Below, piece by piece: positions 1 to 60,400 of a stretch of 64,000 bases of DNA (its first letter is position 1; every line of letters begins with the position of its first letter). The notes below the pieces were generated by a model. That model made no database searches. It was not told where the DNA came from and worked only from the letters and a program-made list of their open reading frames with translations. The stretch is from NCBI GenBank assembly GCA_003024175.1, contig MDYQ01000031.1:1-64000 (forward strand). The letters run 5' to 3'. The position numbers were made by a program, and so were the translations under genes. This DNA is from Planoprotostelium fungivorum. Lineage: Eukaryota > Evosea > Variosea > Cavosteliida > Cavosteliaceae.

Positions 1-3000
1 CCCGATCTCGGTAACCTCACGAACCTCACAGGTCAGTCCATCTACAACGAGCCACTCCTGACCTCACCAGATCTCATCTTGTCCCAAAACTACAACCTCG
101 TCGGTGGTGTTCCCAGAACATTCCAGAATCTAGGCAAGATCCAGACACTCAACGTCAACAATTGTCCCAAATTGGGAGGCGATCTGTACTTCCTAGACAA
201 TCTCACCACCGTCGTACAATTTCAAGGAGGTTTCTCTAATTTCACCGGACAGATCCCAGCCAGCGTGGGACAGATGTCCCACTTGAGCGTGAGATTTCCG
301 TGACATTTCGAGGCTAGGCGTTGACTGGTTGTAGATCTTCAATGCGATGGGTAATCAGCTGACTGGGAGCATTCCTGACTTCCATCCACTGGCCAACATC
401 TCTACCATCGGTCTCTTCGAGAACAATCTGACCGGTCTCATTCCTGCCGTAAGTCCCAATTTTCAAAATTTCGACGGAATGTAACGCTTCCCAGAATTTC
501 GGAGTCGACCTGAGAAATCTGGACGTCAGCAGTAATCAATTGGGAGGTTATCTTAGAAGAGAATGGACTCGTTACAAGAACCTCANGTAATCAGCTGACT
601 GGGAGCATTCCTGACTTCCATCCACTGGCCAACATCTCTACCATCGGTCTCTTCGAGAACAATCTGACCGGTCTCATTCCTGCCGTAAGTCCCAATTTTC
701 AAAATTTCGACGGAATGTAACGCTTCCCAGAATTTCGGAGTCGACTTGAGGAATCTGGACGTCAGCAGTAATCAATTGGGAGGATATCTTAGAAGAGAAT
801 GGACTCGTTACAAGAACCTCACCGTACTCAAATTGAACGACAACAACATCGGCAGCGCAGGTCCCAACTACTACGACAACAACGTGAGTCCATGACGTGT
901 GATGACGTCATCACTCACACCTCGTCAGCTGGCTATCCTTCAGTCTCTGCAGAAGCTAAAGATGTTCGACGTGTCCAACAATCCACTCGGTGGTGAACTT
1001 CTGATCGATGCGTTCGACTATCTAGACAACATCGAAGTCCTCAGGCTATCTGTGAGTCATCTGACACAGAAAAGACATCTGACTCGTTGTAAAGGGGTGC
1101 AACTTGAGTGGTATTGTGGAGGTATCTAGCTCTACGTTAGCCATGCCTTACCTACAGACGATCGATCTGTCGAACAACAATTTCATAAGGTGAGATCAGT
1201 CGTGATTGGGTGGTGATGACGTGGAATGACATCATACAGACAACTACCCTTCTGGATGGGATATTGTCCCAACGTGATCAACGTGAACATGAGCAACAAT
1301 CACGTGAGATATTTCCAATAGAATGACGTTGTAGATTGACGATGACAGTTCACCGAATTGGCCATCTCTTGGGCCATCATGAGCAAATTGGAAGTCTTAG
1401 ATTTGAGGTGATCTATTCATATGAAATTTGAAATTCAAATTTTCTATCAGTCACAACGAAATCGCGGGAGAGATCACGAATGCCGTAGCCATCTGGCCTT
1501 ACATGCAAGTGCTGTTGTTGGACGACAACCAGCTATCAGGTGAACCATAAATCGACTCGTTGTAGATTGACCCGTCCCAGGACCCATTCCGACGGAGATG
1601 GGTAACCTCACTCGTCTCACTCGATTGGGACTGAGCCGTAACAACGTGAGTGACGAGTGATGACGTCACAATGACGTCATCACAGTTGTACGCCGAAAAT
1701 CTAAACTTCCTCTCCTCGATGCGACAGCTGGAGAAGTTAGATCTGAGTCACAACCAGATCATGTCTGAATTACCCGATAGCATGAGTGAGTGACAGTTGT
1801 AGACGGTGACGATTGACGTGTCAGGTGATTCGTTGACTTACGTCGATCTGTCGCACAATGTTCTGTGGGGGCACGTCAACACTTCCATCTTCAATCTACG
1901 TCATTTAGATACCATGGATCTGAGGTGAAGGATCTACAACGTTGTAGACGGAGAATATTGACACCTCACAGCAACAATCGACTGAGTGGTGCCGTGGAGA
2001 CTTTCCGTGGAGATCCGAAGGTGCGTTGTAGATGGATGAAACGATGGTGTCTGAATTGAACAGTACATCGACTTGAGTAATAACACATTCATGGGAGATG
2101 TAAATTTCGTGGGGAATCTCCTATCCATCGTATATCTCAACATCAGGTGTACAATCTGAAATCTCGATGGAAATTCTGACACGTCATCAGTGGTAACCAA
2201 TTCACCGGGCCCATGCCTTCACTCGCCAATCGTCAGAAATTAGAGACGGTACGTCACCTGTTTTATTCATCATCTACAACGAAGGCAGGTGGACATCAGT
2301 TCGAATCAGCTCAGCGGACAATTGCCGGATTTCACTGGAATTTCTGATTTAAGATATCTCAACGCCAGCAACAATATGTTCTCTGGTGCCGTTCCCTCCT
2401 TCTCGCAGAGTCAATCTCTCAGCCAATTTGACGTGTCGTACAACAACATCACCCTGGCTAGAGAGGTCAGTGTGACGTCATCTCATCTACAACGCTCATT
2501 TCTCTCAGGCATCGTTCAATAAGTCTGCCAGTTGTAGTACGAGCCACAATCCGCTGAGATGTCCAGTGGACTGGGCTTACATACAACGCTGCTCTACAAC
2601 CTGCCAGGCCATCGGCAATGAGACCGTTCGATCGGTCGTGTATCACTTGGACCTAGTCTACGAGACATTCGATGCCACTGACTTCTTGTCCAAGCTGTCC
2701 GCAGCTACAAACGTGACACAGAGTCGACTGAGCATCAACAACACGAGGTACACATCCCTTCCTTTTCCCGCCCATTTTTCCCGCCCATTTTTCCGGCCAA
2801 AAAAACTGACGAGAGACAGACCGGGCAGTGTCATCGCAACGGTCGACGTGCATCCACCATCATCTGGTGGATCAAACGAAGGATCAGTGGAAGACACGGT
2901 ACAAGTGATGGAATCCATAGAGATACAAGAATATGAGTCAGCGGGTCTGCCCTTGTTGGCACCTGCAGGACAGACGGCAGAGAAAGCGGCACCGAACGTC

Positions 3001-4947
3001 AGTCAATCCATACCGACCGGTGCCATAGCTGGAGGAGTCATCGGTGAAATTTCATTGATTCCACGTCATTTTGATGACTGACGATGGTGTCAGCTGGTTT
3101 CATCTGTCTCGTGGTCATCACTGTCATCATCTTTGTATTGTACCGCAATCATCTGAGGAGAGAATCGTACAAGAAACAATTTGCCATGGTAGATATCACT
3201 CAACTCAACACTGCCACCGTCAAGAAATCCATGATCGATTACGAGGATCTCAAGAGCTTGGAGCCGGTGGGAGATTTCGATGAAAATTCGATGGACTGAG
3301 CGTTGTAGATTGGATCGGGAGCGTTCGGTATCGTGTACAAGGGAAAATGGAGAGAGACGCAAGTGGCGGTGTGTACATCATCCTGTGTCATTCATTTGAC
3401 TCATTTGTGCCCAGGTGAAGCAGATGAGAGCTGAGCATGTGACACAGAAGCAGCTGGAAGACTTTCTGCACGAAGTGAGTGTGACAGAGAGAAGGAGAGA
3501 GAGTGACAGAGAGCAGGTGTCCATCTTGCAAGGACTCAAGGCACATCCCAACATTGTCACATGTGAGTCACACTCTTCTCCCTCTCTTCTTCTCACCTCT
3601 CTTCTTCTCACCTCTCTCTCAGTCATTGGTCTCACTCTGCCTCCACAGCCAGTCTCTCTTGTCACAGGTACACATCTCTCTTTGCATACACATGTACATA
3701 TCTATGTTTATATACATACATTACTATACATACATCTGTATAGATGTGATCTGATGAGAGTACACAGAATACTGTTCAGGAGGGTCACTGTACAGTCACT
3801 TGCGTAGAGTCAACTGCTCGATCGAAGAGAAGTACAAGTTTCTCAACGAGATCTCTCTCGGCATGCTCCATCTACACAAGGAGAAGGTGATGTACATCCA
3901 TCTGTACACTCCCCTGTGTCAATGCATACTGACTGATAGTAGATCATACACAGAGATCTTGCTGTTCGTAACATCCTGGTATGTCTCTCTCTGTGACCAT
4001 GAATGTACATCTGACATGTGACAGTTGACGAGACATCTAGAAGCAAAGGTGGCTGACTTTGGTCTGTCCAGAGAACAAGAAGATACAGAAGAAGCCTCCC
4101 AGACTCAATCCAAGGGTGAGTCGATATCAACTTTCACATTTCTAACATCACTGCAGTCGGACCTCTGAAATGGATGGCACCGGTAACAACGATGACTTGT
4201 GTGACTTGTACTGATCTACAACGCAGGAAGCCATCACATCTCGAGAGTATTCCATCAAGTCTGACGTCTTCTCTTTCGGGTGAGTGTGACCATCTACAAC
4301 GAGACATGACGAGAGGCAGAGTGGTGATGTGGGAGGTGTTAGAAGTGCGTGAGCCTTGGGACGATCAAGCTGCCGTAGAAGTTGCCTTCGGTGTCGTTCA
4401 CAGACATCAACGTCTTCCAATCTCCGACGACACACCCCCCGTATTGATGGACCTCATGGAGAGTGAGTCACCCACCTTCACCGTCATCCCATCACTTCTC
4501 ATCATCGTCATCCCATCACTTCTCATCATCATCACACGATGTTCATCATCATCAACTGAAGACATTGCAGGGTGTTGGAGAGCAGACCGAACCCTCCGCC
4601 CCGATTTCGGTGACATCACCGAAGCCCTCAGCCAGCAGCGAGAGAAAGACGCAGACACCGCGAACGCCACCGACCATTGCATCGCTCAGTTGAAACAAGA
4701 AGGTTACGATCACGATTTGGGCCCAGGAACAAAGACAGTAGAGAGTGGAACCTCTCACGAGTACATCGACGTCTTCAAAGTCAAACGTTACGAGGGAGGC
4801 GAAGAGTTGGCAATGAACGGAGCAGCCTACGCTCACTGCAGCGAGTTCAACGTGACGCCGGAGCCGAGCGTGGAGGAGAAGGACATCTACCCTGATCTGG
4901 GAAAGTGTGTCATGACGGAGGATGAAGACATACCGAGGAGGAATTAA
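1..4947 (+). CDS. LRR receptor-like protein kinase, 5' end outside window
   Basis: The spliced product is a long series of leucine-rich repeats (for example LDVSSNQLGG-type and MDISSNQLSGQLPDF segments), then one membrane span near 3020-3160 (AGFICLVVITVIIFVLY), a juxtamembrane stretch and a kinase domain from about 3313. Visible kinase parts are the glycine loop GSGAFGIVYKGKW, VAVKQMR, DLAVRNIL, ADFGLSR, PLKWMAP and SDVFSFG. DLAVRN and KWMAP are tyrosine-kinase-like signatures. My splice at 3895-3955 reads IHLDLAVRN, so the usual HRD arginine may be leucine; this depends on the intron choice. A C-terminal tail of about 100 residues ends at 4947. There are more than 20 short introns, many with the CGTTGTAG motif. 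It probably senses an extracellular ligand at the plasma membrane. The gene starts upstream of the window. Positions 351-821 contain an assembly duplication that doubles one repeat. Confidence 0.85.
351..821 (+). repeat. 235-base direct duplication with a single N at the junction
   Basis: Bases 351-585 are repeated at 587-821 with the same length and only three visible differences, and the single N of the window lies between them at 586. The repeated unit holds one LRR exon, an intron and part of the next exon. This is what is expected when two overlapping contig ends, or two alleles, are placed side by side in a scaffold. It should not be read as an extra leucine-rich repeat in the protein. 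Confidence 0.85.
1933..1948. repeat. Palindrome TCTACAACGTTGTAGA
   Basis: A perfect 16-base copy in an intron of the first LRR kinase. The intron runs from GTGAAGGATC to CCTCACAG. Confidence 0.9.
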
Positions 4948-5258: not shown

Positions 5259-6901
5259 TCAAATCCAATTCTTTATTTTGTACCAGACGATGAGAGGTAT
5301 TCCATACATCCCAAAGAACCCCACAATGGCAAAGAATGGCCCGAGGTCGTCTCCACCTATTTCATGTGAGTGACAGAGTGTGACGTCATCACACTCATGT
5401 GAGTGACAGAGTGTGACGTCATCACACCTTTGTAAGGGAAGGGAATGTTGACGGCCAATAGCCCGGTGATCCAGATGGCGGGAATGATGATGGTGGCGAC
5501 GGCTCTGTTTGACGTTTGGCAGGTTGTAGATGGTGAAATCTCACGTGAATTTGAGTACGACCGCACTGATGATGTTTCCCACGTTGGCGATCTCGATGGA
5601 AGCTCTCGATAGATACGTCTCATTGGCATTGTACAAGGTCTCTGTATTTGGTCAGTTGTAGATGGAACGTTCGAAAATCTCACCCTGACAGTTGACCGCC
5701 TTGTCTTCCAGCAGGATAATTTTCGTCAAAATTTCCTCGCAGTACCGCATGTGCTTCATACCGAAGATCTGTCGGATCTACAACGAGTCAGCGACGTACG
5801 ACAATACAAATTCACGTTGGAGTAGAAGAATTCCTTCTTGACGTCTATGGTCGATCTCAGTGGTACAAACTTCTTCCTGGCGTTGCCTACGACCGTTAAT
5901 TTTGGCGGGAACTCTCATCTACAACGAACCGATTCGTCTCAGCAGCTCGTCTTGGTTGTTGATATTGAAGGTGAGAACGAGGTCGAAGAGAGCCGTGATC
6001 TCTATGCCCAATATGGATAGCTCCTCGTCCAATTGAATGAGAACGGCAGACATGAGAACGTATAGAACCCAATCTACACTCTTCATGGCATTCTTGTGTG
6101 AGAATAACTTTCTACCACCTCTCATGATGTTATAGATGATCTGTCATCGACATCATCATCATCATCGTCTTCATCATCGTCTCCATCGTCGTCTTCGTTT
6201 CCCGCCATACGAACGGATTTGAATTTCGAAATGTTCACCTGGAGGGGTGCCTCCACTGTGGTAGGGTGGAAGGTGAGAGCCAGATCTTCGAACAAGATGA
6301 AACGTAAGACGAGCGATTGTGATGAGTAGCTGTCGAAATCGTAGGAGCGAAATTCGATGTAGCGGTAGGGTGCGTGTGTCCACAGAGTCTCTACTCCGGT
6401 TTCTGTTGGAAGATGTGAGATCGTGATCGAGATGGCAGGCACAGACGATATGATTGGAGATGATGTCCATGTGACGAGAAGATGGAACGAACCTGTCTTC
6501 AATCGATTGATGGTGCATGCATCGAGATCGAATCGTGCGCCGATCTGATCGATCTGTTCATCAGTTGCCCCGACGAAATCAAACCAAGTGAGATCTCCCT
6601 CCTTCTTTTTCCATGAACGAGTCACCCAATCGACATCAGTCTCTCGCCACTGTTTCTTCGCCTTCTTTGAGAAATGGAGGACATACTGTAGATCCAATCA
6701 ATCGATGGAATGGAAGATGGGATCTCTCACGGGTGTCGCGTGACTCTCTTTAAAATCTTCGATGAACGTCTGTGATTCGGTCGGGAGAAGAGATACAATG
6801 TCTTCCACGCCGTGAAACTGTTTGATCTCGAGAGAATTTCTCCTCAACACTTGTGTGTCCAACGATTGCGGGGCACTATCATCCAGTGTGAGATCTTCCA
6901 T
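5259..6901 (-). CDS. CorA-like Mg2+/divalent cation transporter
   Basis: The start is MEDLTLDDSAPQ at 6901 (an in-frame Met also lies at 6928), and the product ends IVWYKIKNWI at 5259. The cytosolic N-terminal domain has the CorA signature-like stretch LTWFDFVGATDEQIDQIGA, corresponding to W-x-D-L-x-x-P-x-x-E-E in the family. An acidic run of Asp/Glu around 6145-6200 follows. The C-terminus has two membrane spans, ATIIIPAIWITGLLAVNIPF and FFAIVGFFGMYGIPLIVWY. CorA proteins carry GMN after the first span; here the aligned tripeptide reads AVN. The last intron carries a 33-base tandem repeat. Earlier exons at about 6950-7224 could belong to this gene. The family moves Mg2+ and other divalent ions as a pentamer in the membrane. 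Confidence 0.72.
5363..5428. repeat. 33-base tandem duplication in the last CorA intron
   Basis: Two identical head-to-tail units (5363-5395 and 5396-5428), each holding GTGAGTGACAGAGTGTGACG followed by TCATCACAC. Each unit contains a TGACGTCA core. Confidence 0.85.
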
Positions 6902-9621: not shown

Positions 9622-12300
9622 ATGACGGATCTTCTACAGAATTCTGGTATCAGGAGTGACCCACAACATAGCGCCTTGGATCCATCCACTGGCAAACAGG
9701 TATATTCAATCATGTGAACATCGCTGAGAACATCTTACTTCTGACGGTTGGAGAGTCGACACGATGTTGAAATGATGCTGCAGGTGACGGCCGCCGTTGA
9801 ATCGGTCAAGATGTTCGCCAAAGGAGACTTTCCTCCCAACGATCTTCTATCAGAGTCTATCTCTTCCACTCAGGTGGGGTTAGCACCAGAGATGGAGAAC
9901 CTTTTGTTGACGTCACACCGACAGACGCTCATCAGAGAGAGATCTGACTCTTTGGATCTGTCTGTTCACGCTCAAGTATTAGTCGAAGATACTCAGAGGT
10001 TATTAGACATTGCCAACCGGTGGGCACCTGGGGCTCATTTTTCTCTCGCTCACTCTCACAGATTTATTCAACAGAAGAATGCAGGAGAAGAGATTCAACA
10101 CGTTTGGACGCTATCTCAGGTGCGGAATCACGGTTCACAGTCATCTGATGTCGCACAGCAAAACAAAAGGATCGAGGCCGAAGAGAAGAAGCAAGAGGAA
10201 GAGAGACACCCCGAGAAAAAAGGAGAGATCAAACAGCAGCCCAAGGTGCCCCATCATCTCATCCATCTCCATCGATTTATGTTTCCACAGATAAAGGACC
10301 TGAGAGACGAGGACATGTTGACCCTCAGTCGAAAGCTCATCTTCGTTCTCATCCGGTCTCACGCCTTTCGAAAGACTCTGTTGCAGTTCATCGATCTCAT
10401 GCAAGACATCTTCTGGGGCAAAGACGTGAGACATTCAACTTCTCGGTCGCATACGAATGAAACGTTGTAGACGCGCAGGAAGGAGGCCGAGAAGAAGGCC
10501 GACGAGAGGAACGCACAGAAGATCGACAGGGCTGTTCTGAAGGACCAAGTGGACCGATCGGACAACCCGAACACGAGAACTCTCCTTTCTGTCAACCTCA
10601 TCAAAGCCCAACAGGTGACCAATCCTCCATCATCTTCCATCACCTTCCATCATCTTGCATCATCCAACTGTCATCTCTTGTGGACCAAATGATTGAGACG
10701 ATGGCAGGATGTAGAGAGGGCTAAAATCGAGAGAAAATACGACCCACATCAGGAGATCACATGGGAGGAGAAACAAGAATACAACGTCAGAGCGAGACGT
10801 CTCATCAGTCGACTGGCGGGAGAGCCAGCTCATCATCACGCCCTGGCCAGACTCTTCGTCGTCTCCACAAAGTTCACAGAATTCTTAGACCTCCTCATCG
10901 GTCAACCGATGACCGATGGAAAGGTGACCCTCTACAACGAGCCATCTCAGAAATTAAAGACGAAAAGGATGCAAAGGACACGGCCGCTTGGCATGACCTG
11001 AGGACAATGATCGAGAGGTTCATCGGTGCAGAACAATTGCAGAGGTATCTCTTCGAGTTGAAGAGAAGGTATCTCGTGTTGGTCACCGAGCCTCGAGCGA
11101 TATCTGTCGTCAGACAGTGCAAGATGATCGTTGTAGAGGGACTCCGGGACGCTGAGACTCTCAACGATCCACAGAAGGTGGCTCGTTGTAGATCGACCGC
11201 TCTGATTCAATTCATCAGATCAAATCGTTGGACGATTGCATCGAGAAGATGAGATCCCTCGCATTAGACCAGAGGTTTTCAGATTCCATTCACATCTGTC
11301 TCGACATCTGCAAAGACATCGTCCGAGGCATTCGAAGGGACCCTCTGACGTTAGAGTTGGATGCAGCTCTCAAAAATTTTGGACGTCACATGGCGTTCAA
11401 TTCGAAGCACAAGTTCAGCGCCGGAATTTTCGCGGAAAGTTTAGAACATCTGAAGAACGTCATGCTGCCGGTGGTGATGAAACAATTCGAATACATACCG
11501 GTCAAGAAGGTGGCGCGTTGTAGATGAAAGGAAGCTGAAGGAGACAGGTGGAAGTGTTCACACCCATGTACGAGGTGGCTCTGTCAGAGATGGTCTTCTG
11601 CTTACCCTCCATGATGCCCTCTCAGATACAAGTGAGTCACAAATCTTTGAGACGGTCCAATTATTCGAGACGGCACGAATTTTTGAGACGGCACGAAATT
11701 TCGAGACGGTCGTGTTCTGATGGATATCTAGGTGCGAGTTCACACCGACATCGGTTTCAACACGTTAGAGCTGGCAGCACAAGACACGTCCATGACTGTG
11801 GAAGTTGAAATGAACAACTTGAACGTAGATCTGAAAGACATTCTCTTCGAATACCACTGGAAGACTTTTCCAAAGATTCAGGACAAGGGTGAGATCATTG
11901 TGAAAAAGAGGTTTTAAAAAGAAATCAGGAAAGATTGACGTCAGGATGCCTCGCAAGGGCATGTATATCCTCTTAACTTTTGTCGTTCAATCCAGAGATG
12001 GATACAAGGCTTCCGTTGTCATGAAGAGTGCATCGGTGATGATGAACTGCACGTGATGATTCTAAATGAGATCAGGTCAAGATCGACAAATTGAAGTTAC
12101 ACGTCTCTCAGGCGGAGCGACACAAACTGTTGGACAAGGCCATCAGCAAGTTACTGAAGACTGCGATTCGCGTCGCGATCCAAGATCAGATGGAGGAATA
12201 TCTGAGCAGTTTGGGAAAGTACATTGCAGAGAGGATGACACGTGTTTTCGCCAGCATTCACGCCACGCAGGGTGGATCTCTGGCCACCAGAAGAATGTAG
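9622..12300 (+). CDS. Probable TULIP/HAM1-like lipid-binding protein
   Basis: The first exon starts at 9622 (MTDLLQNSGIRSDPQHSALD) and joins to VTAAVESVKMFAKGDFPPND. The N-terminal two thirds are helical (DLRDEDMLTLSRKLIFVLIR; LARLFVVSTKFTEFLDLLIG; LRTMIERFIGAEQLQRYLFE). The C-terminal third is beta-rich (VHTDIGFNTLELAAQDTSMT; KGMYILLTFVVQSRDGYKAS) and closes with a long amphipathic helix (LLDKAISKLLKTAIRVAIQD). This arrangement matches what I recall of HAM1-like proteins, whose C-terminal domain resembles the BPI/TULIP lipid-transfer fold. That assignment is an inference from layout. Introns at about 10925 and 11165 carry the CTACAACG/CGTTGTAG motif; the intron at 11630-11730 holds a short tandem repeat. 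Confidence 0.5.
11641..11715 (+). repeat. Tandem repeat of about 18 bases in an intron
   Basis: Four imperfect copies of the unit TTTGAGACGGCACGAA fill most of the intron of the TULIP-like gene. The units alternate between GGTC and GGCACGA endings. The array accounts for this intron being longer than its neighbours. Confidence 0.7.
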
Positions 12301-12949: not shown

Positions 12950-15900
12950 GAAAAGGCTATTTTCAATGAGAGTCAAAGTTATCTCCTTCGAGGCATCAGT
13001 CAGAGGATCTATACGGAGGGACACTTTGCACCAGATGTTGATGACGATGAATCCAAACAAGTCGATCTGCAAGAGACATCATCATCTTCCATCTCTGACG
13101 ATGTGAAGAGAACGGAGTATACCGCCAACTACGATGAAGAGATCGACGTCGATGATGATGATGGCATAGAGGTGACAGACGAGATCCAAATCTCGACGGA
13201 TCCCAATCCAAACATGAGGGAGAAGGTGAGATACCATCCATCTACAACTTTGTAGATTGATGATTCCAGTTGAATAAAAATCGCAGAGACCGCAGGATCA
13301 GCACCGGACCCACAGGCATGAGATTTCGAGACTGGAACGAAGAATACCAAGTGAAAACTCGCCGAAAATTCGTCACTGCCTGACTTACGTCCAGAGGTAC
13401 TACAATCAGTTCGTCGGTGCACTACAGACGGGAGAGAAATACATGATGGGAATGTTAAGACAAGGAGAAGTCATGAGAGGCATGCACTGTGTGGCTCAGG
13501 AGTTTGGTGAGTGATGATGGAGCTGAATCATGACGATCATCAGCGGACACGGCGAGCATCTACGCGAAAATCATCGTCAGTGAATTTGAATTGCCTCTAC
13601 ACGAGAAGACCATCAAACCCATCGGTGATGCGACATCATCATCACTCGACACGATCACGTCCATTCTGATTCAAATCGTACACCGTCATCATCTCCACCC
13701 AGGACGTTCGATCATCACACGTCCCATCATCTCACGATCATCATCTCTCGATCATCACTGACACGCATCACAGACATCGGTGGTGCCGCCGGCGGCACGA
13801 AATATCGCGTCCAGAACATCCTCTTCAAATTCGCCTTCGACGCTCTTGTCACCCGAGATCCCGATCTGTGGATGTACGGTGGAGACCAGCCCGACCACCG
13901 GGCAGCCATCAAAGCTGCAAAGAACGAGCTGAAGGGTTTAGAGGCTCACTCTTCACGCTACGTAGAAGGCTTACACTATCCAATGATGGCTCTGGTCGAT
14001 TACAAGGGATATCGCGTGATTGCACTGGCCATACTGCCGATCGATAAGGTGTGATTTCATTCGAATGAAACTGAAGGGGTAGGGTACGTTGAGATATGGT
14101 AGTGATGATGGGGGGATGAATGTACACGCGGAGGATGAGGAGTTGAACGAGAAGATGGAATTGGCGGGAAAGAGATTGGGACTGTGTGGTCACGTGACCG
14201 GAACTCGACAGAAGAAGGTTATATATGGACCTGGGGATATCGAGGGTCACAGAGGTCACGTGAGTTGTAGATGGATGACGTCATCACCAACTCTCACAGG
14301 ATGGTAGGTTGTACGTCGTAGGTGAGTCGAATTGTCTCGTTGTAGATGGTGAGATCTCGCGTAGATTTCGGAAGGGTCTTACCCCCAGAGTATCCCAAGC
14401 TGAGAGTTTTTCCGAACAACCGTTCCGTTTTCTCGGAATTGATCCGGTCAGAACTTCTCGTCACGAGTCGAATTCCTCTCTGCAGCGACGCCTTCACCAG
14501 GTACCATCTACAACAACATCGATGGCGTAACCTGATATCATGATGACGTCATACAGGTGGAGCAGCCACGATGACCCGATAGAGAGGAAGCGATTGAACG
14601 ATGATGTCGCGAGGGTTTCCATGGCAGCCAGAGGACATCGAATCGATCTACTCCTCCAGCGGATACTTTCCCGCCAAAATGTGTTCGCCCGATTTGCTAC
14701 CGACGGTGATTCCATCTACAACGAGCCACTCTGATCCCCCACAGCCATCGACGATGAGCTATTGAGCGTTCTGGATCGTCTCGGTTCGGCCATTCACGCA
14801 TTGGGATTGAACTACAGACACATCGGTGTCATCTACGCCAAGTGCAACGAGCCCTGTGTACGTACCGTACTGCTCAGCATCGCCGCAGCTCGCTGTGCAA
14901 AGTCAGAACTGAGAGACATCATGAGATCAAAGATGAAAGAGATCAAGACACCGTCAGATGAACGTGAGTGGAGAGAGAAAGAAAAGATTTATTCGTGGTT
15001 AGCCTTCAGACTCGTAGTGACGAAATTTCTCAACGTGGTGGCGGGAAAATCGAAATTATCAAAGAATTATTGGCGCCGCGATCTGTGTCGACAATTGGAG
15101 ATGTGGTTTCAAGTGAGACATCATCTCCTCATCTCCTCATCTCCTCATCTCCTCATCTCATCATCTGGACACGTGCATGACGATCTATCTCTATCCTCCA
15201 ACACCTCCACACCTTCTATTCCATCTGAACCTATTCACAGTTCTCTTTCACTCGGGACGAGATAGACAACTTTGATCTAGAAGACATGGCAAACGTTCGA
15301 CTCGTCCTCTCTTTACTCATTCGCCTAAGCCACATCCACGTGACCTCTCTCTCCTCTCTCTCTCGTTCTTCTCTTCTTCTCTCATTCTTCTCAGGTGGCA
15401 GAAGAAGCGAGAAAGACCATCACCAAGCCACTCTCTCCCGGTAGTCGCTTCTCTTTCTCCTTCGTTCCGTCCGATATTCGAGGAAATGACGTCTATTGTA
15501 GACACAGGTATACCTCTCCCATCTCCCCCACTGAATCGCGTTGTAGATCGGACATCTACTTCTCCGCTGGATCTCAGGCCGTTCGAAGGGTAAAGAGGAG
15601 GATCGAAAAAGCCGTGGCGGGTGACAGTGGTAGAGTCCACGATGACAGCACAAAGAGGGACATCCAATATGCCATAGACCGTTTGACTCGTGCGACGGGT
15701 GAATCCTCCTCTATGTGTCATACGTCTCACCTTCTATGTGACAGAGAGTAATCCGATCTGCCCTCTCTATCACATGGCACTGTCTGTTGCCTTCTCAGAG
15801 AAGGCCATGCTGTTGGGTAGATTGAGCCCAACGGAGTACCAGTGGTGTTTCATCAACGTCAGTCGTTGTCTGCAGGGTGAGAGGACGTGTGTGGGAAGGA

Positions 15901-17130: not shown

Positions 17131-19981
17131 TTATCTTGTCTTTGATAATTTAGCCATCTGTCTCTGTGTGAAAATGTCTCTTCCATGCTGCACGGGCTCG
17201 TTCATGTTCTCCATCTCTTCTTCGTCCTCCCTCTTCCTCTTATCCACCGCAGGTGGTGGTGGGAGAGGTGTCTCCATCAGCATGGCGATCATCCCTTCGA
17301 CGTCCACCATCGGCCCTGTCTCCATTCAATCTCCTCTTCTCCTCTTCTTCTCACCTTGCCAGGGTGTCTGTGGTAAGTTCTGCAACAGAGCGTTGACGTC
17401 CGGTGGTAAATTCACGGCCATATATGGATTGCTGGCAGGTGCTTCAAAGGGTAAAGAGGCTGGGTCTCCTGTCTTCAGGGGGATCATGAGGGTGAGGTCT
17501 GGCTTCGGATACTTGTTCTCCATCTTCTCTCCCGTGGCGAACGGGTCGCTGTCGTCTTTCATGTCGTCCGCCAACTTCTCTGGAGTGGAAATTGGTTTAC
17601 CTGGTGAGAGTTGGCGGGTTGTAGATGGATGGATGGTTCACCGAAAGAGTCCAGTTCGGCGAAAGAACAGGGCCACAAGTCGTGATAGCGGTGTCTGTGT
17701 GCGACGGATAATATTCCGTTGAGATCTACAACGTTGTAGTGAGCCGAACGTTGCGTCGAATGTTCTCACATAATTCGGGATAAGCGGCAGCCTTCCTCTT
17801 CTCTAATTTTGTGATGGAATCTAGATCTCCGTAGCTGTATTCGAAGGTGAGGTACATGTTCCATATCTCTAACGCTTCCTCTCGGCTCAAACCACTGACT
17901 GCCTTCTCAAATAATACTCGAATATCTATCGTTCACGTTAATTCAACTTCGGTTTCAATTGATATGAAATGAAAGATGCAATTTATTTATAAAATGTTCG
18001 TTTTATATGGGAATGTGAACAGAGAGGAAAACCACTCACTTCGTTCTTCATTGAGATGTAGAAGAAATTTGAGATATTCTGAGATGTACGCAGCCTCTCG
18101 CGAATACTTGGACATTCCCAGGGTGAACACATTGTTTGCCACCTGTACCAGGTCACGTGACGAACGAGAACACCTTCACCTTCTCGTCCTTCCCTCTATG
18201 CCATTCGATCAGTGCTGCACCTCCGTCAGAATCTTCTTAGAATCTTCCATCTACAACTCGCCTGCGCTGGAAAATACGTGGTGGCTACAGCAGGGGTCAC
18301 CTCTGGCCCTCTTGAATAGAAGACGAAAAGCCTTCAGGTCTTCCGTGCGAATGATGAATTGCATGTATTCAACGTAAACGAGAGGGTCCGGTTTACGCTT
18401 CAGTAACCTCTCGTAGATGTCTTTAGCTCCCTGCGAGGATGAGACTGGAAACTGCGATGCGAAGGTGCGAAGGGCTCACTTTGATGTTCTTCTGTGTTTC
18501 GAGAGAGTTTGCGTAGGCAAAGTAGAGGAGGAGACAATCTGGAATGGCTTCGATAGCTCTCTCGTACACCTACAACAGATGAGTACGTCGTCCGTCATCA
18601 CATCGACATGTCGTCATGTGACACCGTAGAAGATGACTCACCTTGGCGGATTCTTCCGCTCTACCCTGTGCGGCCTCTTCCTCGGCGTATTCGTACCAAA
18701 TCTCTGGATAATGGTAGAGCGACAACAGAGCTTGGTTGTAAGTGAACGCGATCTTGTTCTTCACAGCGTTGGGCTCTAATCTCTGTGGGTTGGTCTTCTC
18801 GTAAGCCACGAGTCCCTTCCACAGTGATGGCTGTAATAGTCAATCTCTTTCAGTTGTATTTCGATGAGAAGGAGATATATCGATGTGATATCTCACTTGG
18901 TTGTCTTCTCCTTTGATTGCGGATGGTGGTCTGGGTAACATGTTGCGATGGATACCTTCGTAGTATCTGTCGCTGTGTCACGTCACATGATGTCGCATGA
19001 CATCACCTCTTCTTCTCTCGATAGATCGCCTTTGCATTCATGAACTTGGGTTGGCAGACGGTAAGAGGTTGTTTGGCCTGAAAAAAGTCAAACGAATTTC
19101 GATTTCATTTTATTCTCGAATCAGACGGAGACGAATGGATGGACTCACCAGTGTCTTGTTTAAGCCGTTTTCGAATGCATCGTATTGTTTCCAGATGTCT
19201 TCTAATTTGTGCATCGGTACCTCTATCGCTCTCTGATAGATTCGTCTCAGCTGCGAGTTCTTCTGTCCTTCATCGAGTTGGTTCTTTGTCTGTTTAAAGA
19301 TGAGCCGATCAGAGAGAAGAGAGGCATGAAAATAGAGTGGACGATGGACAGAGAAGGGATGGAGAATGCATCACCGGCTGTTCATTGATGAAATTGAGGT
19401 AGTCGATCCAGATGGGAGTGGAGGCAATGTCACCTCCAAGTCTGTCTAGAGCGGCCTCGTATGCCTTGGTGGCTTCTTCCGGTGATTTTGTGTTCTGTTT
19501 CATTCACATCAGCATGGATTGAATGGACAAACGTTATCTACCTGGACGTAGTTGACATAAGATTTCCAAAAATCAATACTGGGTATCTTTATCAACTGTT
19601 CAGTGAAGATCGCCGTCACATTGGCGTGATTATTCGATGCCATTTCGTGCTCGGCATAGTATTTCCAATATCTTCCCTGCATTACTCGTTCACTCTACAC
19701 GTTCTCGTGCGAGATGGGTTTAGATCTGACGAAATGGCTCTCACCGCTGTAGGAAAGACTTTCAGGAAGCGAACATAGACATCTCGAGCGACCTCAATGT
19801 CCATCTTCTGTGCCTCTAAGACGAGACTAGTCCATGCTTCTGTGTCCCATACATCTGCGGCGATTCTAACTTCTGCCTTGGAAGTCTTCTCGCGGAGTTG
19901 ATCTATCTGTTCCTGTATAGACTTTGCATTCGATGAATTGAAAGGAGTCGCGATGACGGGTTTGTGGTCCACCTCGCTCAT
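17131..19981 (-). CDS. CSTF3: Cleavage stimulation factor 77 kDa subunit (CstF-77/Rna14)
   Basis: The start is [13 protein letters not shown] at 19981 and the end MAKLSKTR at 17131. The middle is a chain of HAT (half-a-TPR) repeats: [73 protein letters not shown]. The diagnostic part follows the HAT region: [14 protein letters not shown], then a Pro-rich linker and [17 protein letters not shown], matching the conserved C-terminal CstF-77 segment that binds its partners. It acts in the nucleus as the dimeric scaffold of CstF/CF I in 3' end cleavage of pre-mRNA. All introns are short; the one at 17722-17745 is made largely of the palindromic motif. Confidence 0.85.
17725..17739. repeat. Palindrome TCTACAACGTTGTAG
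   Basis: It lies in a CstF-77 intron. On the coding (minus) strand its TTGTAG supplies the 3' splice site before the exon that codes [13 protein letters not shown]. Confidence 0.85.
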
Positions 19982-22682: not shown

Positions 22683-22716
22683 CAGTGTAGATTCGAATAT
22701 AGACGAGTGGGTTGTA

Positions 22717-47786: not shown

Positions 47787-49844
47787 TGGAGAGCCGGTGG
47801 AAGCGGGAGAATCGTCCGACTTCACTTCAAAGTCCATGCTGGTGTCTGGTTTACCGTTCTCGATGTAGTCTAAATCTTCTTCTGTGAGAGGTGTTTTGAA
47901 TGACAGTTTGAGTTTGATGATGTGGACGAGCCTGGGCTCTTTCATCTTGTATCCCCTGAACAAGAGCTCTTCTAATAAGAACTTGTCGGCTTCGACTCCT
48001 GGTAGGGATAAATAGGAGTTGTAGATGGAGACAATCGTGATGATGGTGTGATGATGGGTGTGATGAGATGCCATCGATGATGAAGATGACGTTGACGGGG
48101 ATGCTGGTGATGAGATGCTGGTGATGAGATGCTGGTGATGAGATGATGGTGATGAGATGATGGTCGATGATGGCTTTCACCTCTCTTCTGCATCTCTCTC
48201 AATATAGATACCGCCGTGGACAGAGATATCGAATTGGATTTCAACAGACTCGAATACGTCGCCACATTTGGTGTCTGCCCGCTGGCGATCAACCGTTTAT
48301 ACCACAGTCGTGCAACTACAACGCGTCAGAACGACAGAAATTCGATGAAATCTCACCCTCGGGCCGATCGTTCATCTTTGAGAAATAATTGATCAACACG
48401 TTGTAGTGCTGCAGTATGAATCGCTGTTTGCAGTCAATCTTACACCTGCGAATGCGATCACCTTCTTCAAGCGAGTGTACAATGCCTCTAGCGTATCTGG
48501 CATCAAAGAGGCCACTTCTTTCAGTACGTGTGTCACTAGAGATTTCAGTGGAATTTCAGTATCTACAACGCTCACTGGTGTATGAATCCATGGGAATGCC
48601 ATCTTCTTCCAATTTACGGAACCATTCCATGAACTGACGAAACGATCAATCTACAACGGTGTAGAAGAAGAAAATACCTGCACGTCCCCTTGGTAGGCTC
48701 TGAGGATGACGTTGTAAGCGTACTGTACGTGTCAGAATTTTCGACGAAATCTCTTCCTCCTCACAATGTTGAGCTCTACGTTCTTCTCTTCGAAAATAGC
48801 CCTCCACTCTTCTAATTTCTGTTTCGTTTCAATCTTTTGATTATTAGGTACAATGTTCACCCCCTTGTCCTTCTCGTAAAACTTTAAAATGATGCCAGCC
48901 AATATGGGATTCAATAGATCCTCCTTGTTCGCATAATTGATCCATTCTTCTGCTTCCTCTCTTCTTCCCCTGTATATCACGTGAGCGTACTCATCCAATC
49001 GTCCATCACATCATCATTATGTGATGAGATGATGTCAGCGAAATGTGAAACGGAAGGAAACGTGCCACTCACATTCGGTCGTGGAAACGGATCAATTCAC
49101 CCACTGCGGCCTCTGATAGAGGCAGACCCCTCCGCTCTGATTCTCTCATGTAAAATTCTACTCTCTCACTGATGTATTCCTGAGTGGTTCCATCAGCATC
49201 CGTCATCGATTCAACTCGGGTGATGGAGGGAGAGATGAAGGAGGGAGAAGACGAAATGACATCTCACCGGCGAACGACCCAAAGCATTCGATAAGAAGGC
49301 GATGATGATGGTTCCCATGCTGTACTTGGTGTGGTTTCCCCTACCCTGTTGACAGTTGAGAATGCCGCAGATGTCATCGAATGATAGCCTACCCCTGCTT
49401 GATTATCGATGTATCGATACAGCTCGTCGATTTCTTCTAAATTTCCTTTCTGAGAGTGAAACAACAAGAGAGGAGTAAAGACACTGGCTGGTGTTGTGCC
49501 GCCCATCATTTTCATCCACTTGAGAGCGCCTTCTACATCTCCTGAAGAGGCGTGAGGGATCGAGGAAGAAAGTGCATGCTATCACCTTCATCACAACAGC
49601 TCTTGACCTTCTCTTTGTACCAAAGGGAACGTTCTCTGTGTTTATTCATCACCCACGGCTCTCTCGATGGAGGTGTGTTCTGTGTCTGAGTATTGGTAGA
49701 TTGCCATCTTTGTTGAATGGAGATCGGGTGTATGTGATTATGTGTGAGTGTTCGACCTGCAATACAAGATGTATTTCTGACAACTGATTGTTGCACGAAA
49801 CTCGATCGACATAATCCTGCGAGTGCCCTCATCTCTGCTGACAA
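47772..49844 (-). CDS. Mitochondrial pentatricopeptide-repeat protein
   Basis: The start is MSAEMRALAGLCRSSFVQQS at 49844. The N-terminus is basic and Ser-rich with QQRWQSTN, typical of a mitochondrial presequence. Helical-hairpin repeats follow: DVEGALKWMKMM, STPLLLFHSQKGNLEEIDEL-like, EAAVGELIRFHDRM, REEAEEWINYANKEDLLNPI, YAYNVILRAYQGD, and a good PPR unit, ASGQTPNVATYSSLLKS. The C-terminus is KPDTSMDFEVKSDDSPASTG and the reading frame ends at 47772 inside a palindromic motif copy. PPR proteins bind organellar RNA for processing or translation. The intron around 48050-48170 carries GATGAGATGCTGGT repeats. Confidence 0.68.
48060..48170 (-). repeat. GATGAGATGCTGGT minisatellite in PPR intron
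   Basis: About eight imperfect copies of a 14-15 base unit (GATGAGATGCTGGT, GATGAGATGATGGT on the plus strand) fill the intron between the exons coding LREMQKRG and GVEADKF. It is a slippage repeat and explains the unusual intron length. Confidence 0.75.
48650..48665. repeat. Near-palindrome TCTACAACGGTGTAGA
   Basis: It lies in a PPR-gene intron between two short exons. Confidence 0.85.
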
Positions 49845-50159: not shown

Positions 50160-53100
50160 ATGGTGTGGACAACCTTTGAGAGAAGAGGGAAATGTATCTC
50201 ATTCACTCCAATAGTCTTCACATCAGATTCCCTGTGAGTTGATGGACATTTTAAACAATATAATATACTTGATGGCATCCAGATGGATGTATGTTTGTGA
50301 TATCTGATTGTGATCAGGCATTTCTTCAATGCCGCCGAGAACACCCTTCAGATGCATGATGTCACCAGCGGAGACATTCTGAGACGAATGGAGGGACATG
50401 AAGCAGCCATTACATCGATAGTTCTGGACCCTTTCAACAATCAACAGGTATGTCTTAGATCTTTCATCATTCGGTCTCTGATTCAATGGGTAAGGTGTTC
50501 ACTTCTTCTTACGATGGCACTATTCGAACATGGGATTATGTCGAAGGCAGAATGGTGTCGGTGAGAATACCTTTGTGCATTCGAAGATCTTGACCATTCT
50601 AAACATATCTAGGAGTTTAAAGCTGGCGGTCTGATCCACGCCATGGCATATTCTCAAGAAGAGAAGACATTCTACTATGCCACAGGTGACACGTCTTCCG
50701 AAACCTCTCATCGTCTCCCCATGTGTCATTCTCGTCCATCATATCGTCAATTCATCTCGATATCACCATCCATCACCTAATGTCCGCAGGCGCCAAGAAG
50801 AGCTTCGAATTGCATCGATGGAAAGAGGGCTCCAGCGCCGTCATCACCAAGTTCCACGGCTTCCCCACCGGTCTACACGTCGTCCCTGGCAATTTCGTTC
50901 TCCTTTCAGAGATGAGCCAACTCCACGTCTACCACAAGAATCGCCTCTACCACACGTGAGACCTTCCATCATCATCACGTCCAAATATTGAAACGAGAAA
51001 CAGTTACAATCACGACCTACCCATCTTGTGTATTTCGGTCTCCCCGGACAACCAGCTCGTTGCCATAGGCGACGTAGGTGGACACATTGATGTCATCTAC
51101 GAGTTGTACAACCGAAATGTGGAACACAAACAGAAGACGAGGCTGTTGTGGCATGCCAACGGTGTGGACAGTCTGGCCTTCACCCCTGACGGGCGGGAAA
51201 TCCTCAGCGGTGGTTCAGAGGTGACTTTTCCCGCCAAAATTTTCCCGCCCTTTTCGAAACTCAAATTTCAAACAGGGAGTCGTCGTCATATGGTCGATCG
51301 AATCACAGACGAAGAACTTCATGTCCAGAGGAGGTTCTCTGATTCGAGCCCTATCAGTCAGTCCCGATGGATCAACTTATGGCGTATCTTACGTGGAGAA
51401 TATTTTGAGACTGTACGATTCACAGAGAACTCTCATCCACGAACTTACGGGTCTCAAAACCGGTGAGCGCCACTTTTCTCGGAAATTTCGAGCGCGTCCC
51501 AAATTCTTCTCACCTCTCGAACCCTCGCGAGAATGCACCGAGAATTTCTGACTGACTCGTTGTAGATCCATCCACCAATAGAGACTGGAAGGGTAGCAGT
51601 GCCTTGTGCACTTCCACTCAGACCATCGCCGTCACTCACCGTGGTACCGTCCAATTTTACGACCCCAAGAACGACAGGTTCCATTCGAATGAAACGATGA
51701 CGTCATCTGACGTCATCACAGGGTCATGTCTGACGCAGAGGTGGCCCGTAAGGCCGAGATATTGACGCCAGGCATCAATTTAGACAGCGAGATCGTTCAC
51801 TTGAGCATGTCGAACGAGACGAAAGACCTCGTCACGGTGAGATCGTCGTCGCGTCTCAAATATTTGGGACTGACTCGTTGTAGATCGAGGCCCGGCGTGG
51901 ATTGGGACTCGCCCCCGAGTACAATTTGAGATTCTGGGAGACAAATAACCACACCATCGAGTGAGTACTCTCTACTCGTCCGTTCACTGAACGAACGCAG
52001 CTACACCATGAACACTCTGGTACCCATTCACGCGGGTGATCACGTGACCTCCCTTCACATGTGTCAAGGTGCACGTCTGGTCGTGACGACGAGAGAGAAG
52101 GGAAATTTCGATCTGTGGGAGAGATCTCAAGATGGCTGGCAGTGTAGATTGACCGGTACGTACGGTACGTACGTACGTTCGCTGAACGGTCTCAGGTACG
52201 TACAAGAAGATACGTCCCAATTGCTGTAACGTGTCGTATGATGGATCGCTGGTGGCCATTGCTTACGGTGAAATCATCACACTTTGGGACACTGTGAGCG
52301 GCAAACTACAATGCGAGCTCGTCCACGGTAACGGCGAGCCCGTCAAGTGAGTCGATGACGTGTGATGACGTCATCACTGACGCGTTGTAGACGGATGACG
52401 TTCCTGGGAAACACACCGTTCTTGGTGACGGTGAGTGTGAAGCACGTCAACGTGTGGAACCTGTGCACCTTGTCTCTGTGGTACACCTACGAGCTCGAAG
52501 CGAAATCCGACACCGTCTTGGTGGCGGAAGATTCACAGGGAAGGTGACGACCATCTACAACCCGCCACACCTCCTCACCCGCCCGCAGGTTCGTCGTCTA
52601 CAACGAGGGCCCCCGCGTTCCCGCCAAAATTTCGAAGCCGGAGTGGGCCAAGTCCAAAGTGAAGAACCCAAAGAACAGAGTCACAGGTCACGGAGCTTTC
52701 CGAGTCGAGATCGAGAAGAGACAACCTTCCAGCAGTGTCCAAGGAGGCTACGTCTACCTCTTCTCCGTCCACTCGGTAGCACCCCTGTTGGTATGGAAGA
52801 CGGGACAGGTGAGAGGGTGGGGAGGAGGGGGGAGTGACTCGTTGTAGATACCCGTTCGGTCGCTCACGTTCGGGTCGTTCTCGGGAAGGGACGACGCGGT
52901 GGTGGCTCAATTGGCGTACGTAAATGCTTTCCAGGAATTGTTCGTCAGCGAAGAATTGGACGCGAACACGGTGGTGCCCGCCGCCGCGGACGGGACGAAC
53001 CAACAGGTGGGCGGGAAATTTTCGGCGGGAAACTCATTTGGGACTAGCCGTTATTCACCCCCACCGAGTCCGGAGCGGAGGTCGCCGTATCATCGAAGAC

Positions 53101-57400: not shown

Positions 57401-60400
57401 AATTCGTTCTCTTCTTTACTCTCTATTCGTTGTTCTCTTTTCATTATTCTCTTATCATCATCCTCTTATTGATTGTTGATTATTCTCTTCTCCTCATACT
57501 TTGTTTTATGATCGTAATGGAGAATAGAGAAAAGACTGACGCGATGAATAGATTTCCTTATCTCGTGAATCTGAGTCTGAGTTCGTGTGGATTGAGCATG
57601 GCCATACCTCCATCCATTGGTTCCGTTCGTCTGTTGACTCTACTGGACATCAGGTGAGATGATGACAGACCTCTCGACTCACTCGATCGAGTAACAACAC
57701 CTTCTCTGGCCCCATACCTGATTCATTCGGTAATTTGGCTTACCTGACCGAATTCTACGGGGGGTGAGGGAGGTTTTATTTCATTTTATTCATTTTTTAG
57801 GATGAACCGGATCAACGGAACAATTCCGGCGTCATTCAAGTACAGCAGGCACTTGTCCGTAGTCGACCTGTCGAACAACATGATGACAGGAGGTGACCGC
57901 GAAATTTCGTCGAAATACCGATGAAATCTCAGGTATCACGGACAACATCGCCTCTCTCATCAGTCTGCAATATTTGGACCTATCGAACAATCGACTCAAT
58001 GGTAACATCACGTCAAAGATAACGTCACTCATCGCCATACAATATCTCAACGTATCGCACAATCAGCTGACGGTGAGTGTCGCGTTGTAGATGGTGTCAC
58101 TCGTCACACGTCATGTCTGACTTGACTCAGGGACCGATTCCGTCTTCCATGGGATTTCTCAATACTTTGGAAGTCGTAGATTTCTCGGATAATCGGTGTG
58201 AAATTCGATGAAATTTCGTCTGACAGGTACGACAGGCTGACTGATGTCATACCCGATCTGAGTTCACTCAACGTATTGAACACTCTCATCGTGAGCAACA
58301 ACACCCTTTCCGGGAATTTTCCGGAAACAATGGATGCAGTCAAGTCTCTCACTTACTTAGACATCTCGAACAACCTCTTGTCCGGTAATTTCACGGAAAT
58401 TTCCATCTACAACGAGCCTGACAGTGTCTAGGTATGGATGTCGTGAATCCTTCTTTCAATCTGTCAACGATCACTTGCCTCTCTGCGAACAATTTATTCT
58501 TGTGTCCTCTACCCTGGTGGGCTCTTTCTCATTGCAATGCAACTTGTATTGTGGAGGACTACGTCAATTCCGCTCCAGTGGAAATCCGAATCGATGTGAG
58601 AAATTTCATAGATTTTTCGCAAAAAAGTGACGGAGATTTCAGGGAAATGTCACGAGCTTCAATCGAAATAACTTTTTGAATGCGCTGGCGAGCATTTTGA
58701 ACATCACAACGAGTCGATTAGACATCGTTTACGTACGTAGTGGAAGCGTAATCATCGGTCTCAACATATTACCCCCCAGTCGAGGTGAGAAAGATGATGG
58801 AAATTCGGTGGAAAACTGAGGGAAAACCTAGGTTCAGTCAATCAGGGATCTGCGAATCGCACGCGATCCCTCTTAGACGGCAACACGAAAGTCGCATTCG
58901 CAGCTTTCGGGTACAACCTCCTCGGAACTTCTTTCGCACTCACCGCCGAGGCGTTACCCTCTTCGAATGGAAATTCTGGTGAAATTCCATCGAAATCTCA
59001 TAGAAATCTCACCAACTCCAGCTTCCTCTGGTGGTCTCAGCGATGGCGCAAAAGTGGGAATTATTTTGGGCGGGAGTGTTCTATTATTAGCCATCGTGTC
59101 CATCCTCATCTTCATCGTCGTCAAGCTGGTCAGGAAGCCAAATGCACCCGAATTAGAAGGTTTCAAGAGAGATGTGAGCGTTGTAGATGGAACTTTCTCG
59201 GAATTTACGGTGACAGGTCTTACTGAAAGATGTTGTCATTCTGGAGGCGATCGGAGCGGGTCATTTCGGTCACGTGAGTCAGCGTCCCAATCGATCCGAA
59301 CGGATTTGGGACGTCCCCATCGAAATCTCACCGAAATTTCGCAGGTCTACCGTGGCAAGTGGAACGGCACGGACGTTGCCCTCAAATCTCTGAAGCCATC
59401 GAACCAACAGAGAGAACTGTGGCTGAAAGAAGTCTCCCTCTTGCAGCGACTGAATCATCCAAATGTGGTGAGGCTGTTGGGTATCTACCAGCAAGACGAG
59501 CAAGAGTTCATGGTGTTGGGTGAGTTTCATCTACAACGATGTAGATTGACGTAATGGAGAATATTACGAGAGGGGATCGCTGGATAACTTTCTAAAGAAC
59601 AAGGAGAATGCGGATAAATTGTCGCCGGAAGATTTGATCTTCATGACAGTGGAGATTGCCAAGGGAATGCTGTACCTGGAATCCGTGAGTCTATTTATAG
59701 AACAGTTGGTTCGTTGTAGATTGACATACAACCAGGTGGGTATCATCCACAGAGACCTCGGCGCGAGAAACCTCTTGGTCACGGAATCGAACGGAAAATT
59801 CATCGTAAAGGTGTGTACCGCTCCCCTCGCTTCCACCCTCCACTGACTGACTCGTTGTAGATATCCGATTTCGGTATGAGTAAAGGTACGGCCGTGGACG
59901 GAAAAGAAAAGGAGAAAATTCCGATTCGCTGGGCGGCACCCGAAGTCATCAGAAAAGCCAAGAGCTCCATACGTGAGAATCTTCCGAGAATTTTTCTACG
60001 TAAACTGAAATTTCGCAGAATCGGATGTGTGGTCGTTCGGAGTCTGCGTGTGGGAGATCTTCTCGGAGGGGCAGCGTGAGTGAAATCTCCTCGAAATTTC
60101 ACTCACGTGTACAGTGCCATACGGTCACGTCGGTAATTCCAGGGTTTCAGAATTAGTTCTGAACGAAAACTACCGTCTACCACGCCCGACAAAATGCCCG
60201 GAGGCTGTCTACTCCATCATGACACAGTGCTGGCACAGCGATCCTACATCCAGGCCGACGTTCCAAGATATCTTATCGGACCTGTCACAGGTGACGTGTG
60301 ATGACGTCATCACCACGAGCTGATCCTCGTTGTAGATATACAATTTACGTAGCAACATGACGTCGCAGCAGCTGGCGGCGTTGGACACTGTGGTAACCGT

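Follow-up and report, generated by a model that had tools for sequence, protein, structure and literature searches.

The sites of yeast general regulatory factors such as Reb1 and Abf1 are sharp, often two-part protein sites that have a role in chromatin and lie in promoters. The signals of intron-mediated enhancement in plants are short words in the introns of expressed genes, which act near the promoter and are bound to one orientation. Here we describe a family of short words in a 64,000-nucleotide stretch of the genome of the protist Planoprotostelium fungivorum (the window; GenBank assembly GCA_003024175.1, contig MDYQ01000031.1, positions 1 to 64,000). The main motif, termed M1, has the half-site CGTTGTAGAT. 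These words resemble both the yeast and the plant signals, but they lie in gene bodies and not in promoters, and they are distal and two-sided. We propose that they are predicted sites for sequence-specific proteins that bind double-stranded DNA, gained and lost by mutation and selection in old, short introns and acting within gene bodies, a reading that we regard as about evenly balanced between right and wrong.

Two further described systems come close. Intronic regulatory sites are likewise short motifs in the short introns of a compact genome, and one account places them usually in first introns or at the 5′ ends of genes; in Theileria, constraint drops with intron number, and first introns are said to be frequent locations of functional elements (PMC2612703). 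Introners and introner-like elements, as described in two reports (PMC9860276; PMC7789003), also present a short repeat that recurs throughout a protist genome in the introns of genes unrelated to one another, and some families there have inverted repeats. A motif common to the introns of unrelated genes is by itself no evidence of introners. Unlike in introners, what is shared here is a word of about 18 bp and not the intron, no direct repeats mark the borders, and old introns carry the motif. In the sample studied, the words are concentrated in introns, neutral in orientation and more frequent from 5′ to 3′ along genes, while intron length and intron density along genes are unchanged. A literature search by title and abstract opening gave, among the matches listed, nothing on this motif. 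According to a survey of minor introns, the record named P. fungivorum is really Protostelium aurantium (PMC10639083).

Positions were analyzed in the window and in two stretches of a single contig, P (C1:1-100000) and R (C1:140001-240000), and two further 10-kb stretches (L029 and L030) were added to the window and R for gradient and lexicon counts (hereafter, the pooled stretches). All position results thus come from ~0.31 Mb of 36.9 Mb (<1% of the genome) on few contigs; only word counts cover the whole assembly (36,859,091 bp), with reversed-letter words as the control. Loci of CLU paralogs were picked by homology, and eight small loci (L001 to L008), picked by the motif itself, were left out of every density and gradient. 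A hidden Markov gene finder trained on the window, P and R predicted 109 genes with 803 introns (median length, 45 nucleotides [nt]), which have the donor GTGAG, the acceptor CAG and a branch-like TGAC. Because its noncoding model is only third order, the gene finder can hardly learn the motif, although its 12-base acceptor model could favor GTTGTAG. The CstF-77 and WDR75 genes contain 28 predicted junctions, of which 23 agreed with the deposited proteins, including 12 of 14 in motif introns; the remaining 5 disagreed, and therefore single intron predictions can be wrong. The predicted CstF-77 protein of the window matched deposited PROFUN_05320 at 91% over its full length, with long exon pieces identical.

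The word CGTTGTAGAT occurs 52 times in the window (29 and 23 copies on the two strands) and 7,984 times genome-wide (3973 + 4011), compared with 62 copies (27 + 35) of the reversed word, so a recurring two-strand motif, as an initial sequence-only reading of the window had noticed, is real. Its density is 0.81 copies per kb in the window and 0.22 per kb on average in the genome. The twelve-mer CTCGTTGTAGAT was found 11 times on the plus strand and 6 times on the minus strand of the window, where 100 dinucleotide shuffles gave an expectation of 0.00, and GTTGTAGAT was found 37 and 29 times on the two strands. The palindrome TCTACANNNNTGTAGA occupies 12 places in the window (0.02 expected from dinucleotide shuffles), two fewer than the fourteen full 16-mers counted in that reading; genome-wide, there are 1800 copies versus 7 of the reversed word. 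For GACTCGTTGTAGATNGA, we counted 3 copies in the window and 84 + 83 in the genome, versus 0 + 0 for its reversed letters. The core of M1 is sharp and ~18 bp long, with information content at background ~10 bp away and unrelated flanks, and the motif has palindromic (TCTACAACGTTGTAGA) and mixed forms. An apparent plus-only run of CGTTGTAGAT after C1:186747 is an artefact of listing, as locus L024 has four minus copies.

Copies of CGTTGTAGAT lie overwhelmingly in introns. Assigned by the center base, 45 of the 52 copies in the window are intronic, 6 exonic and 1 in a spacer (2.99, 0.17 and 0.07 per kb, respectively); the corresponding figures are 43, 10 and 1 of 54 in R (2.02, 0.17 and 0.05 per kb) and 2, 3 and 1 of 6 in P (0.17, 0.07 and 0.02 per kb). 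Among the 45 intron-centered copies in the window, 34 lie wholly within an intron and 11 cross an exon-intron border, and the intron density based on wholly intronic copies alone is 2.26 per kb in the window, 1.41 in R and 0.08 in P. An equal density in introns and spacers, the outcome that the sequence-only reading had named as speaking against it, was therefore not observed, whichever of the two window densities (2.99 or 2.26 per kb) is set against the 0.07 per kb of spacers. The longer words behave alike, with 16 of 17 twelve-mers and 10 of 12 palindromes in or across an intron; the lone exonic twelve-mer (40-51), at the edge of the window, probably lies, as judged by eye, in a 39-nt GT..AG intron that the gene finder missed. 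The shorter word TTGTAGA falls in introns at 74 of its 103 places in the window, in exons at 19 and between genes at 10; 38 of the 51 window introns that contain it are no longer than 50 nt, and motif introns mostly measure ~40 to 50 nt. The 16 exonic CGTTGTAGAT copies of the window and R read in frame as Ile-Tyr-Asn (6 copies) or Val-Val-Asp (4), or fall in other frames (6), and some can thus be explained by codon coincidence. Pfam named 8 of 9 tested gene models or parts, from 25 models in the window (CorA, HAM1_N, CLU, abhydrolase lipase, PH, BAG, PPR and tyrosine-kinase-like), and gave no match for the ninth. Because these families differ, the motif resides in unrelated genes, and the observation that almost all copies are intronic in genes without shared ancestry holds.

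M1 is accompanied by other words. When k-mers of 577 introns from the window and R were compared with a second-order model, M1 words ranked at the top, followed by TGACGTCA, GAAATTTC and GGCGGGAA; the 206 introns of P that were compared have few or no copies of these three. Counted wholly within each class of the window, densities per kb of intron, exon and spacer were 1.06, 0.17 and 0.07 for TGACGTCA; 1.26, 0.14 and 0.22 for GAAATTTC; and 0.40, 0.08 and 0.07 for TCACGTGA, 5 of whose 15 copies cross a border. We dropped GGCGGGAA as a fifth member, since this word, though in excess, has about the same density in exons and introns of the window and shows no gradient; the six-word lexicon used in the pooled length, density, adjacency, paralog and gradient analyses still includes it (11 of 647 introns). 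A lexicon word or its complement is present in 225 of 647 introns of the pooled stretches, compared with 19 of 647 for the reversed words. Genome-wide, GATGACGTCATC occurs 993 times versus 4 for its reversed letters, and CGAAATTTCG occurs 522 times versus 6. Also in excess is TTGGCGGGAA (727 + 755 = 1482 copies versus 2 + 12 = 14), which needs an explanation other than that of the intron words because of the equal exonic density of GGCGGGAA. We further noted a likeness of TGGCTCGTTGTAGATGG to the A-box of tRNA genes and dropped it, as there is no B-box-like word among the 70 intron words listed.

Words in introns could also work within the pre-mRNA, where they might direct splicing, form hairpins or pair between introns. 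In keeping with this, GTTGTAG forms the end of 36 of the 787 introns outside P, and the 6 of them that belong to CstF-77 or WDR75 all agree with the deposited proteins. However, copies wholly within introns are neutral in orientation, with 66 sense and 60 antisense copies of TTGTAGA outside P (and 8 and 6, respectively, for GGCGGGAA), which bears out the suggestion that the signal is one of double-stranded DNA and not only a splice signal in RNA. Once border-overlapping copies are included, TTGTAGA shows 92 sense and 55 antisense copies, an excess that we attribute to introns using the motif's own TAG as acceptor. Positions within introns are broad, with a small peak of sense copies 5 nt after the donor and no fixed distance to a splice site. 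A splice-acceptor consensus, raised in the sequence-only reading as a check, accordingly overlaps with the motif in the GTTGTAG-ending subset and fails as the sole account. Folding relative to shuffled sequences was stronger in palindrome introns (mean z, −1.98; n = 25), in TGACGTCA introns (−1.20; n = 32) and weakly in GAAATTTC introns (−0.51; n = 36), but a palindrome must fold, so the first value is no independent evidence, and introns with a single M1 had no excess structure (−0.10; n = 65), which speaks against hairpin RNA as a general cause. We also rejected RNA pairing between introns, as copies in opposite orientation matched no better within a gene than between genes (5.31 versus 5.26 ± 0.20), and several genes have copies in one orientation only. 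A known structured RNA was rejected as well, with no Rfam match at gathering scores in the window. We consider an action of the words in pre-mRNA decidedly improbable. The protein-site reading matches the same data better, since the motif combines neutral orientation and a sharp, degenerate core with the symmetry of a dimer site.

The frequency of motif introns depends on the distance from the start codon. In eight successive distance bins of the pooled stretches, lexicon words were present in 5/65 (<200 bp), 11/65, 19/86, 23/80, 37/100, 40/69 (1.5 to 2 kb), 38/85 and 52/97 introns. When labels were permuted within genes, this gradient had a z score of 4.86 and was reached in 0 of 5000 shuffles (reversed words, −1.19). 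M1 eight-mers alone rose from 1/65 introns at <200 bp to 21/69 at 1.5 to 2 kb, and TGACGTCA, GAAATTTC and TCACGTGA together rose from 3/65 to 14/69, with 24/97 beyond 3 kb. Only 1 of 59 first introns carried M1, as judged by TTGTAGA. The pooled rate was lower near the stop codon, too (13% within 200 bp), yet within genes motif introns lie nearer to the 3′ end than expected by chance (z, −2.27), and the depletion therefore belongs to the start of the gene. The direction is the reverse of that of intronic regulatory sites, which are usually found at the beginning of the gene: in the pooled stretches, more than one unrelated word is common deep in the gene and scarce close to the start codon, and spacers contain almost no M1.

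The same data bear on the possibility that the words are classical intronic enhancers or internal promoters, that is, ordinary transcription factor sites serving the host gene or an internal transcript. The variation of motif load between genes, which exceeds chance (χ2/df, 1.92; 0 of 2000 permutations), is consistent with this, and TGACGTCA and TCACGTGA resemble bZIP and bHLH sites. However, first introns seldom carry M1, and spacers, the usual home of such sites, are nearly empty of the full M1 word, with 0.02 to 0.07 copies of CGTTGTAGAT per kb between genes and 2 to 3 per kb in introns of the window and R, and thus no enrichment in promoters or spacers. In addition, one gene has a motif in 25 of its 46 introns, too many for discrete promoters. 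Enhancers or internal promoters are therefore unlikely, if still worth some weight. As a separate observation, the related word GTTGTA[AG]A, one form of which, GTTGTAAA, seldom occurs in introns, clusters weakly 50 to 200 bp before start codons in the regions upstream of 121 predicted genes (window, R, P, L029 and L030), in P too. Across 55 genes with P included, genes with a higher motif rate tend to have more CpG in the coding sequence (rho, 0.58) and a weaker codon bias (rho, 0.37); without P, the values are 0.39 and 0.42, respectively. Adjacent motif introns within genes were more frequent than expected (95 pairs versus 79.4 ± 4.2), which may be partly caused by the gradient.

The sequence-only reading had favored introner-like elements or their worn remains, so that motif introns would be copies or remnants of mobile intron-making elements. 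Two observations lean that way: introns are somewhat denser in the most motif-rich genes, with 6.55 per kb of coding sequence (CDS), than in the motif-poor genes found alongside them (5.29) and in P (4.85), and the motif is slightly, though not significantly, commoner in CLU introns at unshared positions. The remaining evidence points the other way. The median lengths of motif introns and other introns were 44 and 45 nt in the window (P = 0.34) and 41 and 44 nt in R (P = 0.04), and thus the motif brings no gain in length. No target-site duplication stood out among 84 motif introns scanned for direct repeats at offsets of −8 to +4 with k = 3, 4 and 6; at k = 6, each of the best six offset pairs shown had at most 1 match. 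Unrelated genes are not similar over most of the intron length, as judged by information content, which fades ~10 bp from the core, and not by an all-against-all clustering of introns. Along genes of the pooled stretches, motif introns rise from 0.69 to ~3 per kb of CDS as other introns fall from 5.8 to 2.2, while the total stays at 5.4 to 7.0 per kb in all eight distance bins; the constant total means that motifs replace plain introns and that no introns are added along the gene.

CLU-domain genes form a large family with deeply shared intron positions, with two members in the window (12561-16114 and 22116-25817) and many elsewhere in the genome, among them those at L033 and L039 to L044. Alignment of ten paralogs revealed 13 intron positions common to at least five genes. 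The motif is present in 20 of 102 introns at these positions and in 12 of 46 introns at single-gene positions (Fisher's exact test, P = 0.39), as well as in 1 of 16 introns at positions found in two to four genes. A given old position has the motif in some paralogs and not in others. At 6 of the 7 positions with a motif in at least two paralogs, the motif family is the same, and some sites may therefore be inherited. Motif load among the paralogs ranged from 0 of 16 to 13 of 21 introns, a variation that was not significant over shared positions (permutation P = 0.12). Intron length, density along genes, flanking repeats and paralog positions thus lend introner insertion, the earlier favored account, no support, and we regard it as extremely improbable.

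If the words are instead protein sites, pre-existing short spliceosomal introns would acquire and lose them by ordinary mutation and selection. M1 would be a dimer site, in which one half faces either its own mirror image or a different half, TGNCTCG, and other proteins with the same job would bind TGACGTCA, GAAATTTC and TCACGTGA. Introns would serve as docking places inside the transcribed gene body, and we guess that the bound proteins keep chromatin open or ordered, or support elongation, where the influence of the promoter has faded. Action within the gene body is proposed because the share of introns with a motif, close to the chance level at the start codon, reaches roughly one-half past 1.5 kb. 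A protein-binding site, named as an alternative from the outset, fits the orientation, core and position data best; we infer the binding itself, along with selection and a role in chromatin or elongation. More tentatively, and with rather more doubt than confidence, the words could form a gene-body cis code, read by several DNA-binding proteins and retained chiefly in introns distant from the start of the gene, with ancient introns as docking sites that mark the gene interior. The host introns are barely longer than the words, which are in excess across the whole assembly. Should proteins bind, the dense tiny introns of a free-living protist would have a use, and the role of sequence-specific proteins within gene bodies could be tested directly.

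Several observations weigh against the protein-site reading. An M1-like signal is weak in promoters (15 places upstream of 121 predicted genes), which is odd for a transcription factor site. Distances between motifs show an excess at 100 to 150 bp only (z, 3.2) and no repeating period; strict nucleosome phasing is therefore unsupported, and we rejected a regular nucleosome-like spacing. Motif load is uncorrelated between neighboring genes (rho, −0.005; 46 pairs), and GGCGGGAA has a flat gradient (11/647 introns) and, in the window, densities of 0.46, 0.42 and 0 per kb of intron, exon and spacer, respectively. Nor does the protein-site model predict the motif-poor stretch P (L009 to L018), where lexicon words occur in 8 of 218 introns, near chance (reversed control, 5 of 218), although even there CGTTGTAGAT has 6 copies per 100 kb versus the 0.2 predicted by the reversed word. 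P contains more intergenic DNA than the window and R, and its observed/expected CpG between genes is 0.73 versus 0.95. A mixture of two species in the assembly is unsupported as the cause, because splice sites are the same and codon usage is similar to that of the motif-rich stretches, though spacer CpG differs.

Lastly among these points, positions −7 to −3 of M1 are mutually dependent (mutual-information z up to 11.7), which we read as alternative left halves, although copied subfamilies would have the same effect. Such dependence also favors copying, as do the many near-identical words in both orientations. In this reading, either biased gene conversion or an insertion offset by a matching deletion would have carried a short palindrome into introns already in place. 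A further hint comes from G000:C437 (L039 and L040), where a patch of ~100 bp comprising exon, TGACGTCA intron and exon is near-identical in three CLU paralogs whose proteins are 60 to 72% identical and whose other introns have diverged, a possible case of gene conversion. Against copying, there is little similarity beyond ~10 bp on either side of the core and no increase in length, and variants within a gene were not clearly more alike than expected by chance (5.45 versus 5.26 ± 0.15; same orientation, 5.56 versus 5.26 ± 0.21). We consider copying quite unlikely. Individual sites and motif introns of the window are collected in Table 1.

Table 1. Positions of M1 sites and of introns with related words in the window
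Feature	Position	Strand	Context
Single M1 CTCGTTGTAGAT	1556..1567	+	intron 1540-1580
M1 palindrome TCTACAACGTTGTAGA	1933..1948	.	intron 1865-1971
Antisense M1	4292..4303	-	intron 4280-4319
Sense M1 (gene on -)	5776..5787	-	intron 5769-5815, CorA gene
M1 near donor	11182..11193	+	intron 11178-11218
M1 palindrome	13241..13256	.	intron 13226-13269, CLU-family gene
Intron with M1 and TGACGTCA	14260..14299	+	position common to 7/10 CLU paralogs
M1	14336..14347	+	intron 14322-14364
Antisense M1	14714..14725	-	intron 14683-14744; position common to 9/10 CLU paralogs
CstF-77 41-nt intron with antisense M1	17601..17641	-	junction matches deposited protein
CstF-77 intron, acceptor GTTGTAG	17726..17769	-	junction matches deposited protein
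M1 palindrome	22348..22363	.	intron 22323-22412
M1 palindrome	22717..22732	.	intron 22707-22746
M1 palindrome	23997..24012	.	intron 23985-24029, CLU-family gene
GAAATTTC	24791..24798	.	intron 24778-24819; position common to 8/10 CLU paralogs
M1 palindrome	25559..25574	.	intron 25543-25587
M1 = predicted acceptor	27459..27470	+	intron 27425-27468, lipase gene
M1	29108..29119	+	intron 29072-29155
Intron with two TGACGTCA copies	29459..29506	+	
M1	31033..31044	+	intron 31001-31182
Antisense M1	31500..31511	-	intron 31494-31541
M1 palindrome	31928..31943	.	intron 31921-31961
M1 palindrome	33829..33844	.	intron 33821-33869, BAG gene
M1 palindrome	48650..48665	.	intron 48634-48683, PPR gene
M1 = acceptor	51556..51567	+	intron 51463-51565, WDR75; junction matches deposited protein
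M1 = acceptor	51874..51885	+	intron 51837-51883, WDR75; junction matches deposited protein
WDR75 intron with TGACGTCA and GTTGTAG acceptor	52347..52390	+	junction matches deposited protein
M1 = acceptor	52838..52849	+	intron 52809-52847, WDR75; junction matches deposited protein
Antisense M1 adjoining GAAATTTC	58405..58416	-	intron 58385-58431, receptor kinase
M1 palindrome	59530..59545	.	intron 59520-59559
M1 = predicted acceptor	59851..59862	+	intron 59811-59860
M1 with TGACGTCA	60326..60337	+	intron 60296-60352

Two repeats were observed in passing. One LRR gene of the window contains identical 46-nt introns at 449-494 and 685-730, and its predicted protein repeats a stretch on either side of an X, so the assembly may have duplicated this part at the only N in the window. 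On G000:C168, two pairs of 17-mer motif matches (2860-5658 and 98297-101095) have equal spacing (2782 bp) and inverted order, a pattern as in a large inverted duplication or an assembly artefact.

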